NCBI GenBank assembly: GCA_032622095.1
Contig: CP136067.1
Coordinates: 120,811,030 to 120,875,029, forward strand
DNA length: 64,000 nt
Direction: 5' to 3'
DNA from: Siphonodentalium dalli
Taxonomy: Eukaryota > Mollusca > Scaphopoda > Gadilida > Siphonodentaliidae
Shown: piece after piece, positions 3,958-51,063 of the stretch
How positions within the stretch are numbered: position 1 is the first letter of the stretch
Layout of the letters: every line of letters starts with the position of its first letter
The notes under the pieces: generated by a model
What the model saw: the letters and a program-made list of their open reading frames with translations, nothing else
Databases searched by the model: none
Told to the model about the DNA's origin: nothing
Translations under genes and position numbers: made by a program

Positions 3958-3998
3958 TGACGTCACACAAACACGTGTTAATTTTGCTGGTGGGCAAA
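3958..3998 (+). repeat. Left terminal inverted repeat of the ISL2EU-like element
   Basis: TGACGTCA and GCTGGTGGGCAAA separated by 20 bp, with a CACGTG palindrome between them. The same blocks in the same order are found inverted at 9226-9267. The intervening bases differ, so only parts of the terminus are conserved. Confidence 0.65.
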
Positions 3999-4072
3999 AC
4001 AAAGCCGGTCTCTTTGTTTACATCGGAGATTAAGGTACAGCGCATAATTGCATATTTTTAACAACCTCAAAC

Positions 4073-4271
4073 ATGCCTATGTCTTGTATTATCGGCAACT
4101 GTGCCAATCGACATGACCCGAAAGTAAAAGTATCATATCATCGAATACCAAAGACGGAACTGCGAAAATCAATGTGGATAAACGCAATTCGAAGAGTTTG
4201 TAGCGATAATCCATCGAAGACCTGGATTCCTGGAGATGATGACAGAGTCTGCGGTCGGCATTTCATAACAG
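4073..4271 (+). CDS. Transposase exon 1: THAP zinc-finger DNA-binding domain
   Basis: Starts at ATG 4073 and encodes a C2CH THAP domain: first cysteine pair in SCIIGNC, a central Trp (KSMWINAIRR), and the closing CGRHF (Cys-x2-His). The length, about 66 residues before the splice, fits a THAP domain of 80-90 residues split by an intron. The exon ends with ACAG|GTAAAT, a good donor at 4272, leaving one base to complete the next codon. THAP domains bind DNA in P-element, ISL2EU and some other transposases, and in host proteins derived from them. This exon is intact. The next exon continues with the Asp-rich linker and YVPS motif that normally follows a THAP domain. Confidence 0.8.
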
Positions 4272-4952
4272 GTAAATAATCGATTTATTTTTCAATTAGG
4301 AATTTATTCAACCGAGTTAATTGCTGAGAAAGATATGCCCGATAAACTGTTCCATTTACAGTACCATTTTATGAACTATTAGGAATCCGAAATTGCGTAA
4401 TATCTTACGGCCTCTCCTGTCTTCGTGGTATTGTTTACATTCCGACTACGGTAACCACATAAAAGCGAATTGAATGTAGCTTCTTCTAAAGAATAGGTTA
4501 AATAGAACAGGGAATGGTCAATAATGTTGGAATCTTCACAAGATGTTGATCGCACGGTTGTACTGGCGATGTGATGGAAGGGAGGGTGGGGGGGATCTTG
4601 GAGATGACATATCGTTTTTCCTTTTTCAACTTAGTTCCAACTTTCCAATTGCGATTTTTGCAGTACAGAAAAATAGTGGTTGTCTTTTAATATCTGTTTT
4701 AATATTTGAATTACAGTTGTCTAGTAATGGACTAATTAGTTACATGTATAATGGAAAATTGGGTTTCCTTAGAGTTAGATCATGCCCATGAATTTCTGCT
4801 CTGGCTAACGCCTGTCAAAACTTCAAAAAGTCCCCAAGTTTTGTACTGGTGGAATACGATATCTACGGGTGTTAGCCAGATTTGAGATTTATGGCATGAT
4901 CTAGCATCTCCAGTATCCATTATTAACACTTTCATATCATTTTCGCTTACAG

Positions 4953-5178
4953 GCAGCAGACACGATGATTCCACTCATCCAGACTATGTACCGTCACAAG
5001 AAATGGGGTACTCTAAAATGAGCTTGACAACACCTGAGTCAAAGATTGGTCGTGAGAAGAGGCACAGAAAGAGGAACTCAGCCAAATTACTTATATACGA
5101 CAAAGAAGAAGCTGCACATGCTCTATTAGACCTGTCATTTAATGAGACGCCTGCATCAACCTCGAGTCATCTGAAAAT
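4953..5178 (+). CDS. Transposase exon 2: basic linker after the THAP domain
   Basis: A clear acceptor (TTTTCGCTTACAG, ending 4952) joins in phase with exon 1 (G|GC AGC AGA...). It gives GSRHDDSTHPDYVPSQ, the usual sequence just after a THAP finger, then a Lys/Arg-rich segment (GREKRHRKRNSAK) that could act in nuclear import. The frame stays open to a stop at 5216. The donor is not clear; a weak one (ATG|TTAATT region, about 5178) is used here, so the 3' edge is uncertain. Confidence 0.6.
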
Positions 5179-5555
5179 GTTAATTGTATTATGCACAATA
5201 CCTACTGATATATACTAGTATTTTAAAATCCCATCATTGTTTGCTAAACCATGACTATCCAAGAAAAATCAGGTACATGCTTGCCATTCAACTCTTTTAA
5301 TGTCAGCCCATTTGAATAATTGTTATCACCATAGTGTGGATACTGAAATAAGTTTACGTACAAAATGACACAATAACATGTAATTTATTTATATATATAT
5401 ATGTACACAATATGGACATACAAAACACATGTATAAGCTGAACAATATGTTGATGAAAATATATAAATAACCTGATAGTAGTTGATAACTTACCACAAAA
5501 TTATACAACTATAGATAATAACACTAAGCTGACATATGAATTTATTATGTTTCAG

Positions 5556-6544
5556 GTGTCCACGACTCTTATGTTAGGAATATGGTGTCTCTAAAAAAAA
5601 GACAAGGACATTTTACACAAGGAGATTCAACTTTTGCGATACGAGAGAGATCAACTTAGAGCAGAAAACACCAAAATGAAGTTCGGTGTTAACACCATAA
5701 CCAACGATGATGCCAAAACAACACTTTTCACTGGTCTGCCATCTTTTGGTGTATTCCTCTGGCTGGTGAAATTGTGCGATTCTGTTCTGCCAGCTTCAAA
5801 CGTTATGACCAACCAGGAAGTTGTGGTGGTTATTCTTATGAAGCTGAAGTTGAACTTAGTTCATCAGGATATAGCTATCCGGTTCGGAGTATCGGATAGC
5901 CATATATCTAAGATACTGAACACTGCGATACCAGCCATTGCAAATAAAGTCGCCTTTATGATAAACTGGCCTGACAAAGAGTCTACCCTGAGGCATCTTC
6001 CATCGGCTATGAAGAAGACATATAAAAGATGCCGGTCAATAATAGACTGCACAGAGGTGTTTATTGACCGGCCAGGAAATATGAGAGCTCGTGCCACTAC
6101 ATGGTCAAACTATAAACATAATAACACTGTTAAATACCTTATATGCATATCACCAATGGGAGTATCTCGTTCATCTCAAAGGCATTCGGAGGAAGAACCT
6201 CAGACAAGGTCATAACCCAACGTTCTGGATTTTTGCAAAAACTGTCGCGAGGTGATCAAATACTAGCAGACCGTGGATTTTTAATTGAGGATGATTTAGC
6301 CGCGCACGATGCAGATTTGGTCATTCCTTACTTCACAAGAGGTAAAAAACAGTTGAGTCAAAAGGAAGTTGAACTTACAAGAAGAATTGCGAACGTTCGG
6401 ATACACGTTGAAAGGGCAATTGGCAGAATGAAAACGTTCAAAATAATGTCAAGCATTATGGGCCTGAATATGGTTCCCCATTGTGATTCTATTGCCATAA
6501 TTTGTGGTGCTATATCTAACATGCATAACAAACTTATTAAATAA
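5556..6544 (+). pseudogene. Transposase exon 3: coiled coil, HTH and DDE catalytic domain (frameshifted)
   Basis: An acceptor (TTATGTTTCAG) ends at 5555. After a short N-terminal piece, an 8-A run near 5596 shifts the frame. The reading then continues as a coiled coil (KEIQLLRYERDQLRAEN), a helix-turn-helix of the HTH_Tnp_4 kind (NLVHQDIAIRFGVSDSHISK), and a DDE_Tnp_4 catalytic core. The catalytic triad is visible: first Asp in SIIDCTEVFID (about 6046), second in ILADRGF (about 6268), Glu in IHVERAIGRMK (about 6410). A second one-base frameshift near 6160 separates CISPMG from SFISKAFGGRTSDK. The stop is at 6542-6544. All three acidic residues survive, so the lesions are few. Family placement rests on domain order and the ADRGF and HVERAIGRMK motifs. 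Confidence 0.85.
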
Positions 6545-6632
6545 TACTATAAATGTATGCAGATTACCAACACACATGGAATTAAATTGATTATTATATA
6601 TCCAAACTGTATGTATTTGATACAGCTTGAGA

Positions 6633-7467
6633 TTAGAATGCCATCTGCATTTGAACTTGCGTATAGTAACAGTGCGTCTGTTTGAGTCGTAAGCTCTCAT
6701 CAAGGCAGAAATTTGTATCTTCAGCCGCACTTTCCAACATATTGTCGCGATGTTTGAATGGGCATTTTATCTCCAGGACACCTCTACTGCAACACTCACA
6801 GTTAATAACACCATCTGGAGAGTATCCAATGAATGGTCTATCAAGTGGCACTCTCAATCCAGCCGGGCGACATGTAAACTTATTATGATTACTAGTCATA
6901 TATGACATATAACATTTTCTTGCGACATCTTCATTGTCAACACCCCATGATACAGCTGCATTGTTCTTCAGGTCATATGTTTGATAACCCATTATCCTTT
7001 TAACCAAATTACATGGGTCAGTACTTGGTTTTGGAGTGTAAACATCATGGGCCTTTGAAGCTGTAATGCGACCTACTCTATGCTCATACCATCTCTCACA
7101 TATTGCTTGAGTCCTTGTCTGTAGTTCCAAATCATCAAGCTGTGGTTTGGTGAGAGACGATGTGTACGATGCCCAAAGCTCACCAGCATAATTTTGGACA
7201 TCCTGGTCAGTCATGATATCAGTTTCATCATCATAGAATGAGGACAATGTTGTTGGCAATAAGTTCTCATCCTCAGTTTCAGAAGCAGAGTCGGTGTCAT
7301 CATCCAATGGGGGAATTGTAGTGAAGTACTGCATTTGGGCAAAGGGACTTCAATTCTTTTAACATCTCAACCGTTGAAACTTCAGGCTCACTGTCGACAC
7401 GAGTCACATCTTTTGTACGTTTTCCTCGAATGGTTTCCTCAACTTCACACAGTGGAACATAATCTAC
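6633..7467 (-). pseudogene. YqaJ nuclease exon, catalytic motifs intact, C-terminus lost
   Basis: The exon starts after an acceptor at 7469-7468 (ACTTTGTAG). An opening segment (VDYVPLCEVEETIRGK...) shifts frame near 7325 into the 6633-7334 frame. Catalytic landmarks of the PD-(D/E)XK YqaJ fold follow in order: ERWYEHRVGRITAS, AVSWGVDNEDVARK, FIGYSPDGVI (metal-binding Asp), GVLEIKCPFKHRD (the ExK) and YYTQVQMQM (the QxQ helix). The frame stops immediately afterwards at 6633, where family members usually continue for tens of residues. The active site is therefore present but the fold is truncated. Confidence 0.85.
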
Positions 7468-7802
7468 CTACAAAGTAGAATTTCTCATCAATAATACAAA
7501 TTCAAATAGACTGATGGAATGCTTCTATCTTTTTTGTGTGTTTGTTTTTTCTAAAATGTATTGATCGTAACGAAATGTTACATATATGTACTTTTCATAT
7601 ACTCACAATTTACTATAGACTGGATAGAAGACTTTAATGTTACTGAAATATCCATGGAATTTAATATACTAGTGAGTCTTAACATTTATTTGAGAAATCT
7701 TAAAAAACAAATACTTGCATAAATAAAACATTTTCCTTCATTATGCCACTACAGGTAGACTGGAAAATTGTGAAGGCCACTCATATTACCGTGTAAACTT
7801 AC

Positions 7803-8464
7803 CACTTTGCTAGATCCTTGATTCCATACACATAGTTCACTGGTTGATGAGTTCACAGCCAAACCAAGCCTGGATACTGCATCCCCTTGAAATAGCACTG
7901 CAGCAACATGACTGTATACTTCACCCAATCTGTTTAAAAAAAGATTGTGTCATTATATGCATCATATATATATGCGCCATGTGTGTATATATACACATGT
8001 ATATATACATTACACATATTATACCATACCCATATTAATGTTATGCCTATCTTATTTTCTTTAATAGTGGTATGGTCAGATCCATATGTACAATCTAGTT
8101 CAAATATTGTTTACATCTATATCTGTATTTTCCATTGATATTTGCTAATACATAGCACTGTTATTGTGCTGAGAGTAGGACTATTTCCCCCGTCAGACTG
8201 TACAAGACTTCAGAGAAGTTATGTTCACGCGACATAAGTCGGTGTCAGTAAACAAACTCTCACAGATGACTTACCCTGCAATGCATGTGCAATGAGCACA
8301 AAGTATGTGCCCGTCTTTCTTTGATACGTAAATCTATGGCAAATGTGCATGGCGTGTCAGAAATTCTTTGGGAAGGGATGACATCGGCTTTCAATACGCA
8401 GTAAGGACTGTCACTGGATACTGGATGTTGGTCGATTGTTTTGACATGGCCACTTTTCACGTAC
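7803..8464 (-). pseudogene. SWIM zinc-finger exons 2 and 3
   Basis: Exon 2 (8464-8275) starts after TGTTTCAG and ends CAGG|GTAAGT. Exon 3 (7929-7803) starts after TTTAAACAG and ends GTG|GTAAGT. In the second frame exon 2 reads IYVSKKDGHILCAHCTCIAG, which is the first half of a SWIM motif (CxC). Exon 3 continues LGEVYSHVAAVLF, where the expected second Cys of the Cys-x-His pair is Tyr. A TAG just before IYVS replaces what is usually Trp. The 5' half of exon 2 is in a different frame (HVKTIDQHPV...SQRISDTP), so one base has been gained or lost inside it. Zinc binding should be lost. Confidence 0.75.
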
Positions 8465-8608
8465 CTGAAACATTGTGTAAAAACGTGGGATTAGAGCTTG
8501 GGAAAAAAACGATAGCAGCGATTGATATAGGTAGGCCTTATAGCTAATGACACTGTATAATGTGTTCATGAATTGAGTAGTTGATTAAAACAAATAAATA
8601 AACAAATG

Positions 8609-8611
<3 letters not shown>

Positions 8612-8641
<30 letters not shown>

Positions 8642-8642
8642 A
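8612..8642. repeat. (CA)n microsatellite
   Basis: About 15 CA units inside the first intron of the YqaJ gene. Confidence 0.9.
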
Positions 8643-9180
8643 CAAATTTAATTATTTAAAACAATTGTTTTTGGCTTTTTAGGTTGGCGACTTAGACGTT
8701 GTTGATGTACATAAACATTAAGATGAACGTTTGTGATATCTCACAGGGCGACTAAACTGTGTAATTTATTGCACTCGAAACTTTGTTGTTGTCAACACTG
8801 GGCAAAATGGATGCACGAATTACGGCAACACGCCATAGGTTACGCAGCGATAAAATAACAAATAAGTTACAAATTGTGATAACAAAAAATGATTTACTAA
8901 CCTCCATGCTTCTAGGGATTTGTGTGCTTTGAGAGCTTCTTTGGTATATATTCCCGGCGTGTCGATCATGTAGCTGTAAATGTCCGGGTACGTAACCGGT
9001 GGCCATGTTGATGTTTCGGAGTTCCAACCATCGACCAATGTGTACGGATCGGGAAGTTTTTTTGTGCCCTTGTTGTACGCAAGTTTGTTCGTATATCTCG
9101 CCTGTGCCTCGGAATTCAGATCACTAATAAAATATCTCTGATCGCTGTTAAAACGTATCACTTTCTTCAAAATAACACTC

Positions 9181-9616
9181 GCCGCTTTGTTCGCCATACT
9201 CGAAGAACAGTACACGTGTTATTGCTTTGCCCACCAGCAGGTGCGCACCGGTCCGCGCATGACGTCACTTGTTTATTTATAAATAACGTCGCACGGGCAA
9301 ATGAATAGGCTTATGACACTCCCCATACGAAAGTATCCCTAGACACTAATTTTCATCGAAATCCCGTGATATTTGGGCGTTTGACCTTGACATGACTCGC
9401 CGCTTTGTTCGCCATACTCGAAGAACAGTACACGTGTTATTGTTTTGCCCACCAGCAGGTGCGCACCGGTCCGCGCATGACGTCACTTGTTTATTTATAA
9501 ATAACGTCGCACGGGCAAATGAATAGGCTTATGACACTCCCCATACGAAAGTATCCCTAGACAGTAATTTTCATCGAAATCCCGTGATATTTGGGCGTTT
9601 GACCTTGAAATGACCC
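9181..9616. repeat. 218-bp tandem duplication spanning the transposon/Helitron boundary
   Basis: 9181-9398 and 9399-9616 are near-identical. Each copy holds the first codons of the YqaJ gene, the right terminus of the ISL2EU-like element and about 100 bp of the adjoining Helitron A sequence. Because the unit contains the junction, it arose after those two sequences came together. The very few differences between copies imply a recent event. Confidence 0.9.
9226..9267 (-). repeat. Right terminal inverted repeat of the ISL2EU-like element
   Basis: Inverted GCTGGTGGGCAAA (9226-9238) and TGACGTCA (9260-9267) match the left terminus at 3958-3998. A second copy sits about 218 bp to the right within the tandem duplication. 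Confidence 0.65.
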
Positions 9617-9752
9617 GATTTCAAGGTCAAGGTCGCGTCGCACCGGCAACTTAATATGCCTATGCCACTCCCCGGCCGAAAGTAGCCCCACATACCAAGT
9701 TTCATCGAAATCGGTTTGGCCGTTTCTTGTCTCAGTGTTCATTTATTTGCAG

Positions 9753-9868
9753 GCGAGATTGACTCAGACGAAGAAGTAAATGTACATATACCAGTCATAC
9801 CAAGCAGATCAACAAGGAGTGGACGACAGATCAAGTTCAATAGATTTCTTGAGGATTTTTTGGCATAA
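9753..9868 (+). pseudogene. Captured 3'-terminal exon (copy 1)
   Basis: A 3' splice site (TTCATTTATTTGCAG, ending 9752) is followed by 37 open codons ending in TAA at 9866-9868. The product begins EIDSDEEVNVHIP and ends with RSTRSGRQIKFNRFLEDFLA. A short acidic stretch followed by TRSGR and an aromatic-rich tail resembles the extreme C-termini of some retroelement or transposon polyproteins, but no family is assigned. It lies on the strand opposite the Helitron, as expected for sequence picked up by chance. An identical exon sits in Helitron B. Confidence 0.5.
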
Positions 9869-10204
9869 TATGAGTGTATATGGTCAAATATCAAATGAAT
9901 TACACATTTGATACTGCCAATGCGTTGTTTTAGCTATAAACATTGGCAACAATGGGTTAAATTGGTATAATTAGTATTCCGGATGCCACCCTCTGTTATG
10001 GAGTATTCCAGATGCCACCCCCCCCCCCCATTTTAGGCCAGATGCCGGATGCCAGGGGGTGGGGTGGTCCCCCTCATTGATGTGTGCTGTGGAGATTTCA
10101 CACACGCCAAGAGGCGTAACTCTGTTGTCTGCAATATGTTGACAGATTAATGGCTGTTGGCCTATTGATTTTTACTGTGATTCACTCGGATTTGTTTATG
10201 TGAT

Positions 10205-10690
10205 ACCGGGGGGGGGGTCGGAAAAAACTTTCAGTCACGTATCTTGAGTTTTTCCTTTCGACCCTTGTTGGGACCGACCCACCCCCGCGTCCAAATTTCT
10301 TTCCGTTTTGGCAGTTTTTTTCCCCGATCATTTTTTGTAAACCGCTGTATATGAATTTCTGTGCATATTATTTGCCATGGATGTTAACATTGACATGTAA
10401 ATAGGAACGAGTCATTTTGGGGTCATTCGGCCAAAAAAACATGGCTGCCAGCGGCCATCTTGGATTTCAAAATTCAATCCATAAGCATGGGCTACAGGCT
10501 ATACTATACTTGTCTGATCATCATGACATTTTTCATTTATGTTAATATTGACATTCTAAGGTGTTCTAAGCCAAACTCATTGCAAAAACAGTCAAACAGA
10601 CTTGCAGGAAAACAAAATTGAGTTGCGGAAAAAATTGTTTGTTGGTCCCATCGACCACCCACCCACCCCGGCATACGTGGTGATACTGGG
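10205..10690. repeat. R1 repeat inside Helitron A
   Basis: Begins with a G run (about 10207-10216), then TCGGAAAAAACTTTCAG, GACCCACCCCCGCGTCC and TTTCCGTTTTGGCAG. It ends in CTAAGGTGTTC...GTTGGTCCCATCGACC and CCCCGGCATACGTGG. These blocks also occur at 2225-2625 and 15030-15500. Confidence 0.7.
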
Positions 10691-13064
10691 GTAAATATGA
10701 GCCCGTTGGTGCCAAAATTGCGGCCAAATTGCCATTGTGTTTCTGTTCAGAGCCTAGTATATCTTGCCTTAGGAAACGGATGCTAAAAAGCTAGAATCTA
10801 CAGCTTAATACCTCGACTATGGACGGGAGTATCACTGCCATTCTGAGAATAAGAGATGCCTAAATATTGGTGTAGGATTAATAAAGTGATCGTTGTTAAA
10901 TACTTTCTTGCAAATGTGTGACCTTTAATATGTTCAAGATTTATACTTATTTCAACCGACGTTAACGTTTTGGCGTAAGGTCATGACATTGAACTCTTTC
11001 CTGAAAGTAAAATGTTATTTCAGAATTGAAAATGCCCAATTTCTCCTGAGCCCTTTCTAGGATATATCCAGAAACACTTCTCTCCCACCACCTACACATT
11101 TTAGCACAGGCAGTCCGTGTGGGATAGCTGGGTGAGATTTCCCTGTCTCACCCAAGACTTGACCAGCTGTCTCACCTTACCCACGTGACTGCTTTAATTA
11201 AGAGCCGGAACTAATTGAACAATCCTCATCATTTTTTGTTATAATACACCAAATACAAATTAGTAGAGTGATTTCCTCTGGGACCCCCAAGCTAGGATCA
11301 GCATAAAAACATCCTGGGAGCTGAATGTTCAATGACACATGGATGAAAAGTGCACGAAAAAATGCAGGAATGTATTTCCCGACGAGAAACATCAAATACG
11401 GCCACATGGTGATATATGACAAGGTTTTACTCTGCGGAAGAACTCAATGGAGTCAACTCATTCAGTCTGATTTGGTCGTGACGTTTGCGTGTGATATATT
11501 CTGTTTGACAGTTGCCTTCCATTATGACTGAATAGGGAAGAATCCTGTGTCCGCAAATGTGGTGAGATACATAATCGGTTGTATTTTACTAGTACAGGAA
11601 TAATGTTTCCTATGAAGCCAATTGGAGGGCGTTTAAATAGTATATGGCGTGGAGATTGAATAAGAAAATGCGGAGAGCGTCACGGTGGTTGCATGGCAAG
11701 TTTATTAAAGTGCCCATGAATAACAGTTTTTTCTTTTCAATTTCAAGTTTGAGTGGATTGACTCCGAGCAGGGACAATGCAATTTCTGTGCTCGTTCTTG
11801 TCGGTAACATTTGAATTGTTTTGATGCACATGCGATAAGATGTGTATAATTCCGTCATAATAAATAGGTGCAGCTGCATTTCACATAAATACGAGTTCAA
11901 TGCGAATTTTCAGATTATATGCTCGAGCGTATCCTCGTAAATATATAGTGAACAATGTAAACTGCTAGAAGACGCCAAGACAACAATAGATGGAATACCG
12001 GCGTTAGTTTATTTGTGAGATGGTGTGTTTTATCGGGATTTCATTTCAAATAATGATCAATCAATTCATTTAATCTTGTCGACCCATACATAATACATAG
12101 GTATTAAGATAACATATAATACATTTTATGCACATGGACTCAAAGTGGGGGTATCAGATATTTCTCGGTTCATTTCATGGTGTCACCTGTTCTACGTGCA
12201 TGGGTGTTTCATTGTGGTGTCGGTTACATTTTGACCTAGCTGTATGCAACACCAAAAACAGACAAAACACGTATGCGCAGGTCGCTAGGAATTAACATTA
12301 GCGCGGGTTCGTGCTGTAGTACATATGTACGACAGCGTCATGCGCTCTTCTGGTGTACGTCGGAAGGCTTTTAGCTGGTGAACTATAGCACCGCTGGTAT
12401 TCGGTGACTGGCTTCAATGTCATATATCCAAATTCTAATCTTCATAGATTTTGGGACATTCCTCCGATCATAATAGTAATATGTCGAAAACTACTTCAGA
12501 TATACTAATCTATATCTATATTTTCGAATGTCAGTATGTCCCTATAGAAATTTACATTGAACATCATTTAACAGTCAAAGGAGAGTAATCAGTTATATAC
12601 AAACGGTTGCCACTGAGTACACTAAATAAAATGCGATCTTGGTTTATCAATCCTTCAGAAGACTAGGAGTATATATGCAATGAATGGGTAAAGACTGAGA
12701 ATCAATACTGAAATAATTTTGTATCACGAAGATACTTGTTGTGTTGCCTCATTAATGGTCATTGGAACAAAATATTAGCTTATTAGTATGTGCATATATG
12801 ATATCGTTGCCATGGACACAGGTTTTTTCTGACACATGACCCATAGCCGGGACTCATCAATAGTCAGTATCTACACAGGAGTAAAGTAATTGATTGGTGT
12901 TTTGTCTTTGCAAATTTTATGTTTGAAATACAAATAAATGTGCACACATTCCACCACAATTGGAATACAGGCAATACATAACTTAAAGTGTTTAAGAGGT
13001 TAAATTTTCGCTCAAATGGCTGCCATTTAATTCGCCATTTTGAATTTACCCATAATATATAAGA

Positions 13065-13799
13065 CTAGAAGGTGACCCGACTTCGTCCGGGCTATTCAAA
13101 AACCAAATTTCAAGTCGATTGCTCCACCCGTTTCCTAGATCTGGTCTGCGCATGCGCGAAGCTGGTGTCGCACGTGCTCGGCGACCCGATAAAATTCGTA
13201 CCGGGGCAAGATACATTCACATACCAAATTTCAAGTCGATAGCTACACCCGTTTCCGAGATATATAGCCCAATGTCATTTGCGGATACCTCGGCCGGTGA
13301 TGAGTTAACGCGACACAGTCAAATGCATCGGCAGGGTGAGAGTTAACGTAATCTAACTTTGTGACCTCTGACGACGTCATAGAAGTTACGCATTGATTTT
13401 ATCCTGATAAAAGATCATACCACTTGTCCCTAATAATTGAGGCAGATAACTAAAACGGATACATACATGTTATATATCGTTGGAAAGATGAAGCCACACA
13501 GATTCTAACCGTGTAAATTATATGACTGGCAATTTATTATTCGCGCTATATCGAATCGATTTGTGAGCACCGAACTGAAATATATTAGCGCAAAACGGCG
13601 TAAAAATAGATTTGACCTCCGCACGTGAAAAGTTGACCTCGCACGGACAAATAAATATGCCTATGTTCGTCTCCGGCCGAAAATACCCTAAAATACCAAA
13701 TTTCATCGAAATTGGCTTAGTCGTTTTCGAGTCCATCGATTTCAAACACACACACACACAAACAAACACACACACAGATCTTTCAAAATATATAATAGA
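13065..13799 (-). mobile_element. Helitron 1, complete non-autonomous element (735 bp)
   Basis: Minus-strand element with 5' end TCTATTATATATTTTGAAAG (13799) and 3' end CTAG (13068-13065). Seven bases before CTAG is a hairpin, CCCGGAC-GAA-GTCGGG. These are the diagnostic Helitron ends. It directly abuts Helitron A on one side and Helitron B on the other with no intervening base. Internal sequence has repeated ACCAAATTTCAAGTCGAT and CACCCGTTTCC blocks and a CA-rich stretch near 13750. Its first 580 bp or so (from CTAG) match the 3' part of Helitron B. No protein is encoded. Confidence 0.85.
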
Positions 13800-14621
13800 C
13801 TAGAAGGTGACCCGACTTCGTCCGGGCTATTAAAAAACCAAATTTCAAGTCGATTGCTCCACCCGTTTCCTAGATCTGGTCTGCGCATGCGCGAAGCTGG
13901 TGTCGCACGTGCTCGGCGACCCGATAAAATTCGTATCCGGGGCAAGATACATTCACATACAAAATTTCAAGTCGATAGCTACACCCGTTTCCGAGATATA
14001 TAGCCCAATGTCATTTGCGGATACCTCGGCCGGTGATGAGTTAACGCGACACAGTCAAATGCATCGGCAGGGTGAGAGTTAACGTAATCTAACTTTATGA
14101 CCTCTGACGACGTCATAGAATTTACGCATTGATTTTATCCTGATAAAAGCATCGTACCACTTGTACCTAATAATTGAGGCAGATAACTAAAACGGATACA
14201 TACATATTATATATCGTTGGAAAGATGAAGCCACACAGATTCTAACCGTGCAAATTATATGACTGTCAATTTATTATTCGCGCTATATCGTATCGATTTG
14301 TGAGCACCGAACTGAAATATATTAGCGCAAAACGGCGTAAAAACAGATTTGACCTCCGCACGTGAAAAGTTGACATCGCACGGACAAATGAATAGGCTTA
14401 TGACACTCCCCATACGAAAGTATCCCTAGACACTAATTTTCATCGAAATCCCGTGATATTTGGGCGTTTGACCTTGAAATGACCCGATTTCAAGGTCAAG
14501 GTCGCGTCGCACCGGCAACTTAATATGCCTATGCCACTCCCCGGCCGAAAGTAGCCCCACATACCAAGTTTCATCGAAATCGGTTTGGCCGTTTCTTGTC
14601 TCAGTGTTCATTTATTTGCAG

Positions 14622-14737
14622 GCGAGATTGACTCAGACGAAGAAGTAAATGTACATATACCAGTCATACCAAGCAGATCAACAAGGAGTGGACGACAGAT
14701 CAAGTTCAATAGATTTCTTGAGGATTTTTTGGCATAA
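14622..14737 (+). pseudogene. Captured 3'-terminal exon (copy 2)
   Basis: Same acceptor and the same 37-codon frame as at 9753-9868, with no change seen in the coding part. The two copies move with the Helitrons. No promoter or upstream exon accompanies either copy. Confidence 0.5.
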
Positions 14738-15029
14738 TATGAGTGTATATGGTCAAATATCAAATGAATTACACATTTGATACTGCCAATGCGTTGTTTT
14801 AGCTATAAACTTTGGCAACAATGGGTTAAATTGGTATAATTAGTATTCCGGATGCCACCATCTGTTATGGAGTATTCCAGATGCCACCCCCCCCCCCCCA
14901 TTGATGTGTGCTGTGGAGATTTCACACACGCCAAGAGGCGTAACTCTGTTGTCTGCAATATGTTGACAGATTAATGGCTGTTGGCCTATTGATTTTTACT
15001 GTGATTCACTCGGATTTGTTTATGTGATA

Positions 15030-15500
15030 CCGGGGGGGGGGGGGGTCGGAAAAAACTTTCAGTCACGTATGTTGAGTTTTTCCTTTCGACCCACCCCCGC
15101 GTCCAAATTTCTTTCCGTTTTGGCAGTTTTTTTCCCCGATCATTTTTTGTAAACCGCTGTATATGAATTTCTGTGCATATTATTTGTCATGGATGTTAAC
15201 ATTGACATGTAAATAGGAACGAGTCATTTTGGGGTCATTCGGCCAAAAAACATGGCTGCCAGCGGCCATCTTGTATTTCAAAATTCAATCCATAAGCATG
15301 GGCTACAGGCTATACTATATATACTTGTCTGATCATCATGACATTTTTCATTTATGTTAATATTGACATTCTAAGGTGTTCTAAGCCAAACTCATTGCAA
15401 AAACAGTCAAACAGACTTGCAGGAAAACAAAATTGAGTTGCGGAAAAAATTGTTTGTTGGTCCCATCGACCACCCACCCACCCCGGCATACGTGGTGATA
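15030..15500. repeat. R1 repeat inside Helitron B
   Basis: Same order of blocks as at 10205-10690, with a longer G run (about 15033-15045) and loss of the TTGTTGGGACC segment. G-run length is the most variable part between copies. Confidence 0.7.
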
Positions 15501-17871
15501 CTGGGGTAAATATGAGCCCGTTGGTGCCAAAATTGCGGCCAAATTGCCATTGTGTTTCTGTTCAGAGCCTAGTATCTATTGCCTTAGGAAACGCATGCTA
15601 AAAAGCTAGAATCTACAGCTTAATACCTCGACTATGGACGGGAGTATCACTGCCATTCTGAGAATAAGAGATGCCTAAATATTGGTGTAGGATTAATAAA
15701 GTGATCGTTGTTAAATACTTTCTTGCAAATGTGTGACCTTTAATATGTTCAAGATTTATACTTATTTCAACCGACGTTAACGTTTTGTCGTAAGGTCATG
15801 ACATTGAACTATTTCCTGAAAGTAAAATGTTATTTCAGAATTGAAAATGCCCAATTTCTCCTGATCCCTTTCTAGGATATATCCAGAAACACTTCTCTCC
15901 CACCACCTACACATTTTAGCACAGGCAGTCCGTGTGGGATAGCTGGGTGAGATTTCCCTGTCTCACCCAAGACTTGACCAGCTGTCTCACCTTACCCACG
16001 TGACTGCTTTAATTAAGAGCCGGAACTAATTGAACAATCCTCATCATTTTTGGTTATAATACACCAAATACAAATTAGTAGAGTGATTTCCTCTGGGACC
16101 CCCAAGCTAGGATCAGCATAAAAAAATCCTGGGAGCTGAATGTTCAATGACACATGGATGAAAAGTGCACGAAAAAATGCAGGAACGTATTTCCCGACGA
16201 GAAACATCAAATACGGCCACATGGTGATATATGACAAGGTTTTACTCTGCGGAAGAACTCAATGGAGTCAACTCATTCAGTCTGATTTGGTCGTGACGTT
16301 TGCGTGTGATATATTCTGTTTGACAGTTGCCTTCCATTATGACTGAATAGGGAAGAATCCTGTTTCCGCAAATGTGGTGAGATACATAATCGGTTGTATT
16401 TTACTAGTACAGGAATAATGTTTCCTATGAAGCCAATTGGAGGGCGTTTAAATAGTATATGGCCGTGGAGATTGAATAAGAAAATGCGGAGAGCGTAACG
16501 GTGGTTGCATGGTAAGTTTATTAAAGTGCCCATGAATAACAGTTTTTTCTTTTAAATTTCAAGTCTGAGTGGATTGACTCCGAGCAGGGACAATGCAATT
16601 TCTGTGCTCGTTCTTGTCGGTAACCTTTGAATTGTTTTGATGCACATGCGATAAGATGTGTATAATTCCGTCATAATAAATAGGTGCAGCTGCATTTCAC
16701 ATAAATACGAGTTCAGTGCGAAATTTCAGATTATATGCTCGAGCGTATCCTCGTAAATATAAAGTGAACAATGTAAACTGCTAGAAGACGCCAAGACAAC
16801 AATAGATGGAATACCGGCGTTAGTTTATTTGTGAGATAGTGTGTTTTATCGGGATTTCATTTCAAAGAATGATCATTTAATCTTGTCGACCCATACATAA
16901 TACATAGGTATTAAGATAACATATAATACATTTTATGCACATGGACTCAAAGTGAGGGTATCAGATATTTCTCGGTTCACTTCATGGTCTCACCCGTTCT
17001 ACGTGCATGGGTGTTTCATTGTGGTGTCGGTTACAATTTGACCTAGCTGTATGCAACACCAAAAACAGACAAAACACGTATGCGCAGGTCGCTAGGAATT
17101 AACATTAGCGCGGGTTCGTTCTGTAGTACATATGTACGACAGCGTCATGCGCTCTTCTGGTGTACGTCGGAAGGCTTTTAGCTGGTGAACTATAGCACCG
17201 CTGGTATTCGGTGACTGGCTTCAATGTCATATATCCAAATTCTAATCTTCATAGATTTTGGGACATTCCTCCGATCATAATAGTAATATGTCGAAAACTA
17301 CTTCAGATATACTAATCTATATCTATATTTTCGAATGTCAGTATGTCCCTATAGAAATTTACATTGAACATCATTTAACAGTCAAAGGAGAGTAATCAGT
17401 TATATACAAACGGTTGCCAATGAGTACACTAAATAATATGCGATCTTGGTTTATCCATCCTTCAGAAGACTAGGAGTATATATGCAATGAATGGGTAAAG
17501 ACTGAGAATCAATACTGAAATAATTTTGTATCACGAAGATACTTGTTGTGTTGCCTCATTAATGGTCATTGGAACAAAATATTAGCTTATTAGTATGTGC
17601 ATATATGATATCGTTGCCATGGACACAGGTTTTTTCTGACACATGACCCATAGCCGGGACTCATCAATAGTCCGTATCTACACAGGAGTAAAGTAATTGA
17701 TTGGTGTTTTGTCTTTGCAAATTTTATGTTTGAAATACAAATAAATGTGCACACATTCCACCACAATTGGGATACAGGCAATACATAACTTAAAGTGTTT
17801 AAGAGGTTAAATTTTCGCTCAAATGGCTGCTATTTAATTCGCCATTTTGAATTTACCCATAATATATAAGA

Positions 17872-18805
17872 TAATGTTGTCAACGGGTATACAGTCTGAT
17901 ACATGTCCGAACAACATAGCTACAAACTGAGCAGTGTTCCTCGCAGTTACTGGTCACCCGCAATTTACAATGGTTTAAAATGGGAGGAAAACAGGCGTTT
18001 TCACCAAAATGGTTGCCATGTCAACCATGACAATTTTCCAGCTTGGCATGATATCCAAAACTACTATTCATGTGTTTCAGATGTGTGCCAAATGTTGCAC
18101 TTTTACCATAGCATGCGCGAATTTTCATCTATCCGCCCCACTAATAACATCCCATGTGCCCATTTGCGTATACAAGTTATGAAATAAAAAATGTTGGTGA
18201 GCCCACGTCCGCTTAAGATGTGACTTTTGTGGCGTTGGCTACGAATAAGAAAAAAGGTCCGAATTGTGGAAAGATTTGATTCCATCTTGACTATGACCTG
18301 CGTGTTCTCAAAGGTGGAACATATACCACCTATCAAAAGTTTCTTTTGAAGTTTGTTCAAGTTATCATTGAGGCATCACCAGTATGATGATTCTTAAGAG
18401 GAACAAAGGCGCACAACTCCATCAAAATCGTGTCACGCGAGGTTGCGATTAGGAGGATAGAATTGACGAATTAACGGCGATATATTATTCATAAAAGTGT
18501 TTTTAAAAAGCACTCCAAAACCTCTCCCAAAACACGCACACAATAGGAGAATTTGACTGATGACAAGTTGTGCACATATCAATGTAATGTACTACATGCA
18601 TGTGAGTGAGTGGATGAGGGATAGCCACGGTCAATCAAAATTCTGAAAGATCGTCCAAATATATATACATCGTAGAGAAGAATAGAATATAGCCATGCGT
18701 AATGAGTAGATATCATGCTGCAACCTTGGTACAACGCAATGGGCTAATTGGTCAGTGGACTGATTGTGTGAAAACCCAGCGGGCGACATGGCTAGCTATG
18801 GCATA
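17872..18805. other. Unique-looking flank, no gene recognised
   Basis: No convincing gene. Short open frames at 17903-18187 and 18103-18360 have no recognisable domain and overlap on opposite strands. This is the outer flank of the Helitron array. Confidence 0.4.
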
Positions 18806-50679: not shown

Positions 50680-51063
50680 TCTAATATATATTTTGGGACT
50701 TCTGTCTGTTTGTCTGTCTGTGTGTCTGTTATCAATGGCCGGGAAAACTGCCAGATTGATTTCTACGAAATTTGATACCTGTGGGTACTTTTGTCCGGTG
50801 AGTGTTTTGGATGGGTCAAATAGTGACCCCGACCTGACATTGACCTTCAAAATGGTCAATTCAAGGTCAAATCGGGTAAAACGGACGGATTTCGACGAAC
50901 TTTGATACCTAGGGGTACTTTTGTCGAGAGTGTGTTTTGGACGGGTCGAATCGTTACCCCGACCTGACCTTGACCTTAAAAATGGTCAATTCAAGGTCAA
51001 ATCGCGCCTTTCGATGGAAAGCAGAGGGGAAACAGCCCGGACGAAGTCGGGCCCACCAGCTAG
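50680..51063 (+). mobile_element. Helitron C, complete non-autonomous element (384 bp)
   Basis: Plus-strand element with 5' end TCTAATATATATTTTGGGAC preceded by A. The 3' end is hairpin CCCGGAC-GAA-GTCGGG, 8 bases, then CTAG followed by T. It has the same terminal hairpin as Helitrons 1 and B, so it is the same family. Inside, a unit of about 118 bp with GATACCT..GGGTACTTTTGTC and AAAATGGTCAATTCAAGGTC is present twice. It sits within the 6.3-kb insertion. Confidence 0.85.

Follow-up and report, generated by a model that had tools for sequence, protein, structure and literature searches.

The window analysed here, a stretch of 64,000 nucleotides from the scaphopod Siphonodentalium dalli, holds one intact Helitron of 735 bases (H1) and the tail of a second, located at an ordinary A/T target in an older repeat (Table 1; slashes mark joints or insertion points). 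The first-pass annotation had read positions 9289-17872 as three complete Helitrons, B, 1 and A, following one another on the minus strand, and the letters A and B are retained below as names for the corresponding sequence. Canonical Helitrons start with TC, end with a hairpin followed shortly by CTRR (CTAG here), and insert between A and T. H1 resembles a non-autonomous element of this kind in having a 5' TC (TCTATTATAT), a 3' CTAG with a hairpin-like sequence shortly before it, and an A/T insertion point without target duplication; ORFs of 150 aa or more were absent from it. It is unlike a canonical Helitron in that its hairpin folds no better than shuffled sequence. The predicted fold as DNA was weak (-3.3 kcal/mol at both 3' ends), and 95 and 70 of 200 shuffles folded at least as well as the two hairpins. 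With up to three mismatches allowed, the 27-base 3' end itself (CCCGGACGAAGTCGGGTCACCTTCTAG) matched the window twice and 100 shuffles not at all.

Table 1. Positions of the features discussed, in window coordinates unless contig C1 or a fetched stretch is named
Feature	Position	Strand	Description
R upstream of the target site	17872..18715	-	Continuous with 17871 in 9/9 outside copies
'Helitron B' body	14370..17871	-	Not Helitron: R as far as about 16657, more flank, and piece E; repeats 13064-9504
Switch point CATTTGTCCGTGCGATGTCAAC	14369..14390	-	Between A-like CATTTGCCCGTGCGACGTTATT (9521-9500) and H1 TATTTGTCCGTGCGAGGTCAAC (13653-13632)
B tail	13800..14390	-	Last ~590 bp of a second H1-type unit, by similarity to H1; CTAG end abuts H1
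H1	13065..13799	-	Complete non-autonomous Helitron, 735 bp; 5' TCTATTATATATTTTGAAAG, 3' CCCGGACGAAGTCGGGTCACCTTCTAG, next base T
H1 3' hairpin sequence	13076..13091	-	Identical at 13811-13826
3' insertion junction CTAG/T	13064..13065	-	17872 joined to 13064 gives ATTA/TCTT
'Helitron A'	9504..13064	-	Host DNA on the 3' side of the insertion: R as far as about 11841, followed by more flank and by E
E	9287..9725	-	Fragments resembling Helitron interiors, no ends recognised, within the A flank; matches to H1
Trio copies	C1 137827734-137830235 and 137836951-137839435	opposite orientation	About 7 kb apart
Trio within fetched stretches	L021 4234-6736; L022 4564-7049	L022: -	

Both minus-strand joints described earlier were confirmed to the base: CCTTCTAG ends at 13800 and TCTATTATAT starts at 13799, CCTTCTAG ends again at 13065 and TCTTATATAT starts at 13064, and the number of extra bases is zero in each case. 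The lengths reported for H1 (735 bp) and B (4072 bp) were likewise right. Both joints had been taken to link Helitron to Helitron, which is real for the B tail and H1 and does not apply to H1 and A. Similarly, the 3' hairpin with CTAG ascribed to every unit is present on B and H1, and none was recognised for A: on the minus strand below 13065 there was no match to either 3'-end pattern, patterns that an unrelated 3' end would escape. Alignment of H1, B and A by BLAST to positions 4000-1, where a hidden 3' end of A might lie below 4 kb, returned short matches (113 bases or fewer), none of them to H1.

The presumed 5' start shared by A and B (TCTTATATAT) was searched for in the whole genome (2.23 Gb, 9 contigs). 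The first 32 bases of A and B had 11 copies in a search for exact matches; two are A and B themselves and nine lie outside the window. In all nine outside copies the alignment crosses 17872/17871 into the repeat upstream of B, so that these are genome copies in which the presumed end is not an end. The sequence just before TCTTATATAT is in these copies that found before B, ending GACAACATTA (GACAACATTG in L031 and GATAACATTA in L039); L035 carries a deletion of ~34 bases situated ~20 bases upstream of the joint, and only its last ~20 upstream bases align without a gap. In 10 of the 11 exact copies, B included, TCTTATATAT is internal to an older repeat, R. Since the copies run on upstream, TCTTATATAT represents the middle of R, which spans the window from at least 18715 (the furthest point reached in loci of 3 kb, and thus a lower bound) to about 16657, with aligned pieces 83-93% identical. 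CTAG precedes just one of the exact copies, A, and does so because a Helitron sits in front of it there. Of the three starts of TC plus AT-rich sequence formerly taken as Helitron 5' ends, that of H1 holds; those at 17871 and 13064 do not.

The same nine copies provide paralogous empty sites, reading ATTA/TCTT in eight and ATTG/TCTT in one. When the window flanks were joined at the 3' boundary of H1 and compared with the outside copies by eye over 60 bases on each side, substitutions were seen but no base was gained or lost at the joint; in L040 and L041, both of which were read to 10 kb, the BLAST alignment places base 500 opposite 17872 and the next base, 501, opposite 13064. As the joined flanks match all nine copies, the insertion took place between A and T of ATTA/TCTT, a canonical Helitron target. 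B has taken the place of the 5' joint at which the array was originally inserted, so that this joint no longer exists.

These observations bear directly on the reading of the locus as three complete head-to-tail Helitrons, formed either by insertion at an end already in place or as a concatemer of rolling-circle replication. Exact CTAG/TC at both joints speaks for it, as do the frequency of such junctions in the genome and the existence of arrays of unlike units (L020, with adjacent identities of 61-73%). We nevertheless regard it as highly improbable: no end exists at TCTTATATAT in any of the nine outside copies, the empty sites refute A and B as Helitrons, no 3' end was recognised for A, and the only exact copy preceded by CTAG is the one beside H1. 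The claim fails on A and most of B, which are host repeat DNA beside the A/T target. It was the duplicated flanking DNA of the older repeat that made the flank resemble two further Helitrons. A target beginning with TC lets flanking DNA pass for a Helitron, which is a trap for structure-based Helitron finders and one that paralogous empty sites resolve.

A and the body of B differed by 40 mismatches in 3489 aligned bases and by seven indels (97.6% identity over 3005 bases, 98.9-99.1% over 527-530). They share one private base relative to all nine outside copies (GCGAATT against GCGGATT) and are about equally distant from the three outside copies compared, which identifies them as sister copies of the window locus. 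Their likeness extends about 2.3 kb past the end of similarity to L040 and L041 (both copies examined). Judged by these alignments, A and B would most simply be the product of a local duplication.

The remainder of B is of Helitron origin. Its last 651 bp, including a related stretch before the switch point, are 95.1% identical to H1, and among the matches listed the B tail and H1 together align over 1.3-1.4 kb to pairs of units in other arrays. The first ~146 bp of the unit to which the tail belonged appear to be missing, replaced by A-like sequence. A tandem array, taken as two or more units joined CTAG/TC, is thus present at the joint of B tail and H1 only, with the B tail lacking its own 5' part. 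Piece E of the A flank is itself related to H1 (78% over 88 bp at 9638-9725, plus related matches of 75-77 bp). The transition in B from A-like to H1-like sequence falls within a 14-base motif common to H1 and to E; in E this motif occurs at 9521-9500 and again at 9303-9282, and the homology at the switch is short, consisting of ATTTG, one mismatch and then CCGTGCGA.

Taken together, the locus was probably formed by insertion of a Helitron array into R, followed by an unequal exchange that duplicated the flank. An array of at least two units of the 735-bp family would have inserted between A and T of ATTA/TCTTATAT, a target that by chance consisted of TC and AT-rich DNA, the 3' flank thereby imitating a Helitron 5' end. 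A later unequal exchange, in the short motif common to the first unit of the array and to E about 3.5 kb downstream, would have fused an empty copy of the locus with a filled one, giving the order R, flank, E/H chimaera, H1, flank, E that was read earlier as B-1-A. This order would result in one step if E on the empty copy exchanged with the leading unit of a Helitron dimer carried by the filled copy. The ends and target of H1, the empty sites, the sister relation of A and B and the E/H switch are observed. We infer the pairing of a filled with an empty allele, as well as the order of events; the same letters would result from template switching during replication or from two misassembled haplotypes, and no single-copy empty or filled allele of the window locus was seen. 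Replication-based template switching is in fact equally possible, because the homology at the switch is shorter than is usual for allelic crossover. Template switching had been named in the first-pass annotation, which came close in the case of the chimaeric B, its main claim of three Helitrons being unsupported.

An assembly artefact, in which an empty and a filled haplotype were joined in tandem, is an unlikely source of the same arrangement. The difference of 1.15% between A and B (40 of 3489) is haplotype-like, and the product would equal that of a real unequal exchange, but the 14-base homology at the join, judged from the assembled letters, seems too short for the usual overlap join. Rolling-circle capture, in which the transposase would have read from CTAG/TCTT through the flank to an H-type terminator and thereby made B a new capture element at the same site, is quite improbable in our estimation. 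It would account for B running from TC to a hairpin and CTAG and for the resemblance of CTAG/TCTT to a true joint, and chimaeric and composite Helitrons are described in PMC5148889. However, the inserted piece would have to begin exactly with the sequence found at its target, a coincidence that unequal exchange dispenses with, and nine of the 11 exact copies of the 32-base start (exact copies only) are plain R.

Beyond the insertion, similarity of A to B stops near 9504 and A then runs into a YqaJ/DDE_Tnp_4 element. The ORFs for these two domains gave rise to the idea that A was part of a TIR transposon starting at 13064, which was rejected on the position of the inverted matches: 18 bases at 3985-4002 match 9440-9457 (100%) and 9222-9239 (94%), which suggests element ends near 4.0 and 9.2-9.5 kb and not at 13064. 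Between these inverted end matches, the element (3985-9457) contains a DDE_Tnp_4/HTH_Tnp_4 ORF (5595-6215, plus strand) and a YqaJ-domain ORF (6633-7349, minus strand); we take it to be ISL2EU-like. A 218-bp tandem duplication at 9177-9612 spans part of E and the first 21 bases after an ATG ahead of the YqaJ ORF. Elsewhere in the window, a probable solo Helitron relative was noted at 50680-51063 on the plus strand (A/TCTAATATATATTTTGGGAC ... CCCGGACGAAGTCGGGCCCACCAGCTAG/T).

The window locus is an ordinary one that was misparsed, and genuine arrays are numerous in this genome. The H1 family is dispersed with shared ends, a search with the 20-base 5' end finding 3147 exact matches genome-wide; units bearing both ends in the fetched loci measured 598-1062 bp (script limit 1300 bp). 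CTAG directly before TCTATTATATATTTTGAAAG had 1426 matches, against 0 for the reversed control, meaning that 45% of exact 5' ends follow CTAG. Among the first 100 5' ends listed on contig C1, this was true of 41 (lists compared by hand).

Arrays were sampled in 20 stretches of 10 kb from C1, chosen for CTAG/TC junctions, with the result that solo copies are under-represented; the sample comprised 100 units in 31 groups, window H1 included. Composition varied widely. For instance, L023 is homogeneous, with four 913-base units 100% alike and a best outside match of 95.5%, and L020 is mixed, with units of 636, 695, 1043, 788 and 734 bases whose neighbours are 61-73% alike. With the large array (L026, L027) and L014 left out, identity was 99% or more in nine of the 38 pairs of adjacent units, compared with 1.1 expected by shuffling units among places (0 of 5000 shuffles reached nine), and fell below 90% in 10 of the 38; with L014 kept, the corresponding fractions were 22% and 22% of 46 pairs. 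Of the 54 units considered once the same groups were dropped, 13 had their nearest relative in their own array; for the other 41 it lay elsewhere or was tied, 5 of these having it in a different group on the same stretch. Because outside candidates outnumber inside ones, these counts speak only against rolling-circle multiplication having been the single source. Arrays probably arise both by multiplication in place and by the joining of unlike members.

The outer neighbours of the groups were also informative. At the 5' side the adjacent base was A in 17 of 29 groups and the CTAG of another Helitron in 12 (28 groups from the fetched stretches plus H1, two large-array pieces left out; all stretches selected for CTAG/TC). 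Every one of the 31 groups had T on its 3' side, and so did all 23 that remained when those running into the start of a further unit were not counted. Insertion at a pre-existing 3' end, offered earlier as a source of tandem Helitrons, fits this target rule poorly. A new copy inserting between A and the TC of a resident element would satisfy the A/T rule and leave CTAG/TC without an extra base.

Additionally, two adjoining stretches, L026 and L027 (G000:C1:161327000-161346999), contain a satellite-like array of 25 Helitron units of ~730 bp, some joined CTAG/TC and others CTA/TC; this array may have multiplied after loss of G at some joints. On the minus strand of L022 (3502-7049), a four-unit array apparently interrupts another unit within its 5' end (TCTATTA/TATATTTTGAAAG).

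L021 and L022 share the same ordered trio of unlike units, with identities of 99.7%, 98.1% and 99.7%. The 3' flanks are without similarity for 1.5 kb beyond the 3' end, and the 5' sides are occupied by different Helitron tails, alike over about 190 bases. The trio may have been mobilised as a whole across two internal terminators, or it may reflect an inverted duplication ending by chance at the array edge; it is one case and not proof. PMC5148889 proposes that chimaeric Helitrons form by self-insertion, with the transposase stopping at the first 3' terminus, which makes passing over terminators a different step.

Tandem Helitron arrays as such are already known. A study by Xiong et al. (2016, Plant J) is said to belong with this literature. 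PMC5876387 and PMC5148889 report tandem Helitrons in bats, plants, Drosophila and fungi, the latter source citing M. lucifugus, Drosophila, rice and maize and giving one case of three in tandem, from Metarhizium acridum, which it explains by insertion into the 5' end of another Helitron or by rolling-circle replication. Like the arrays in those two papers, the present ones are head-to-tail copies with 3' and 5' ends joined. Unlike them, the window has a Helitron-to-Helitron connection at only one of its two joints, and such joints are very frequent in this genome (1426 of 3147 exact 5' ends). The oyster Cg_HINE/Helentron elements with internal tandem repeats (PMC7492417) are likewise a rolling-circle family linked with tandem repetition, the repeats there lying inside one element, whereas here whole elements are repeated. 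Among the open-access papers surveyed by title and abstract opening, none names a genome with Helitron arrays this abundant.

A broader picture, which we put forward tentatively and as possible rather than likely, is that Helitrons in this genome live largely in arrays, which would grow by rolling-circle multiplication and by repeated insertion of different members at the A/TC edge; mixed arrays might move as composites past internal terminators, and the units might mediate unequal exchanges that duplicate flanking DNA, as in the window. What remains of interest is how abundant the arrays are, together with one trio that was possibly moved as a block, and the tandem junctions of this genome are numerous enough for testing how such arrays arise.
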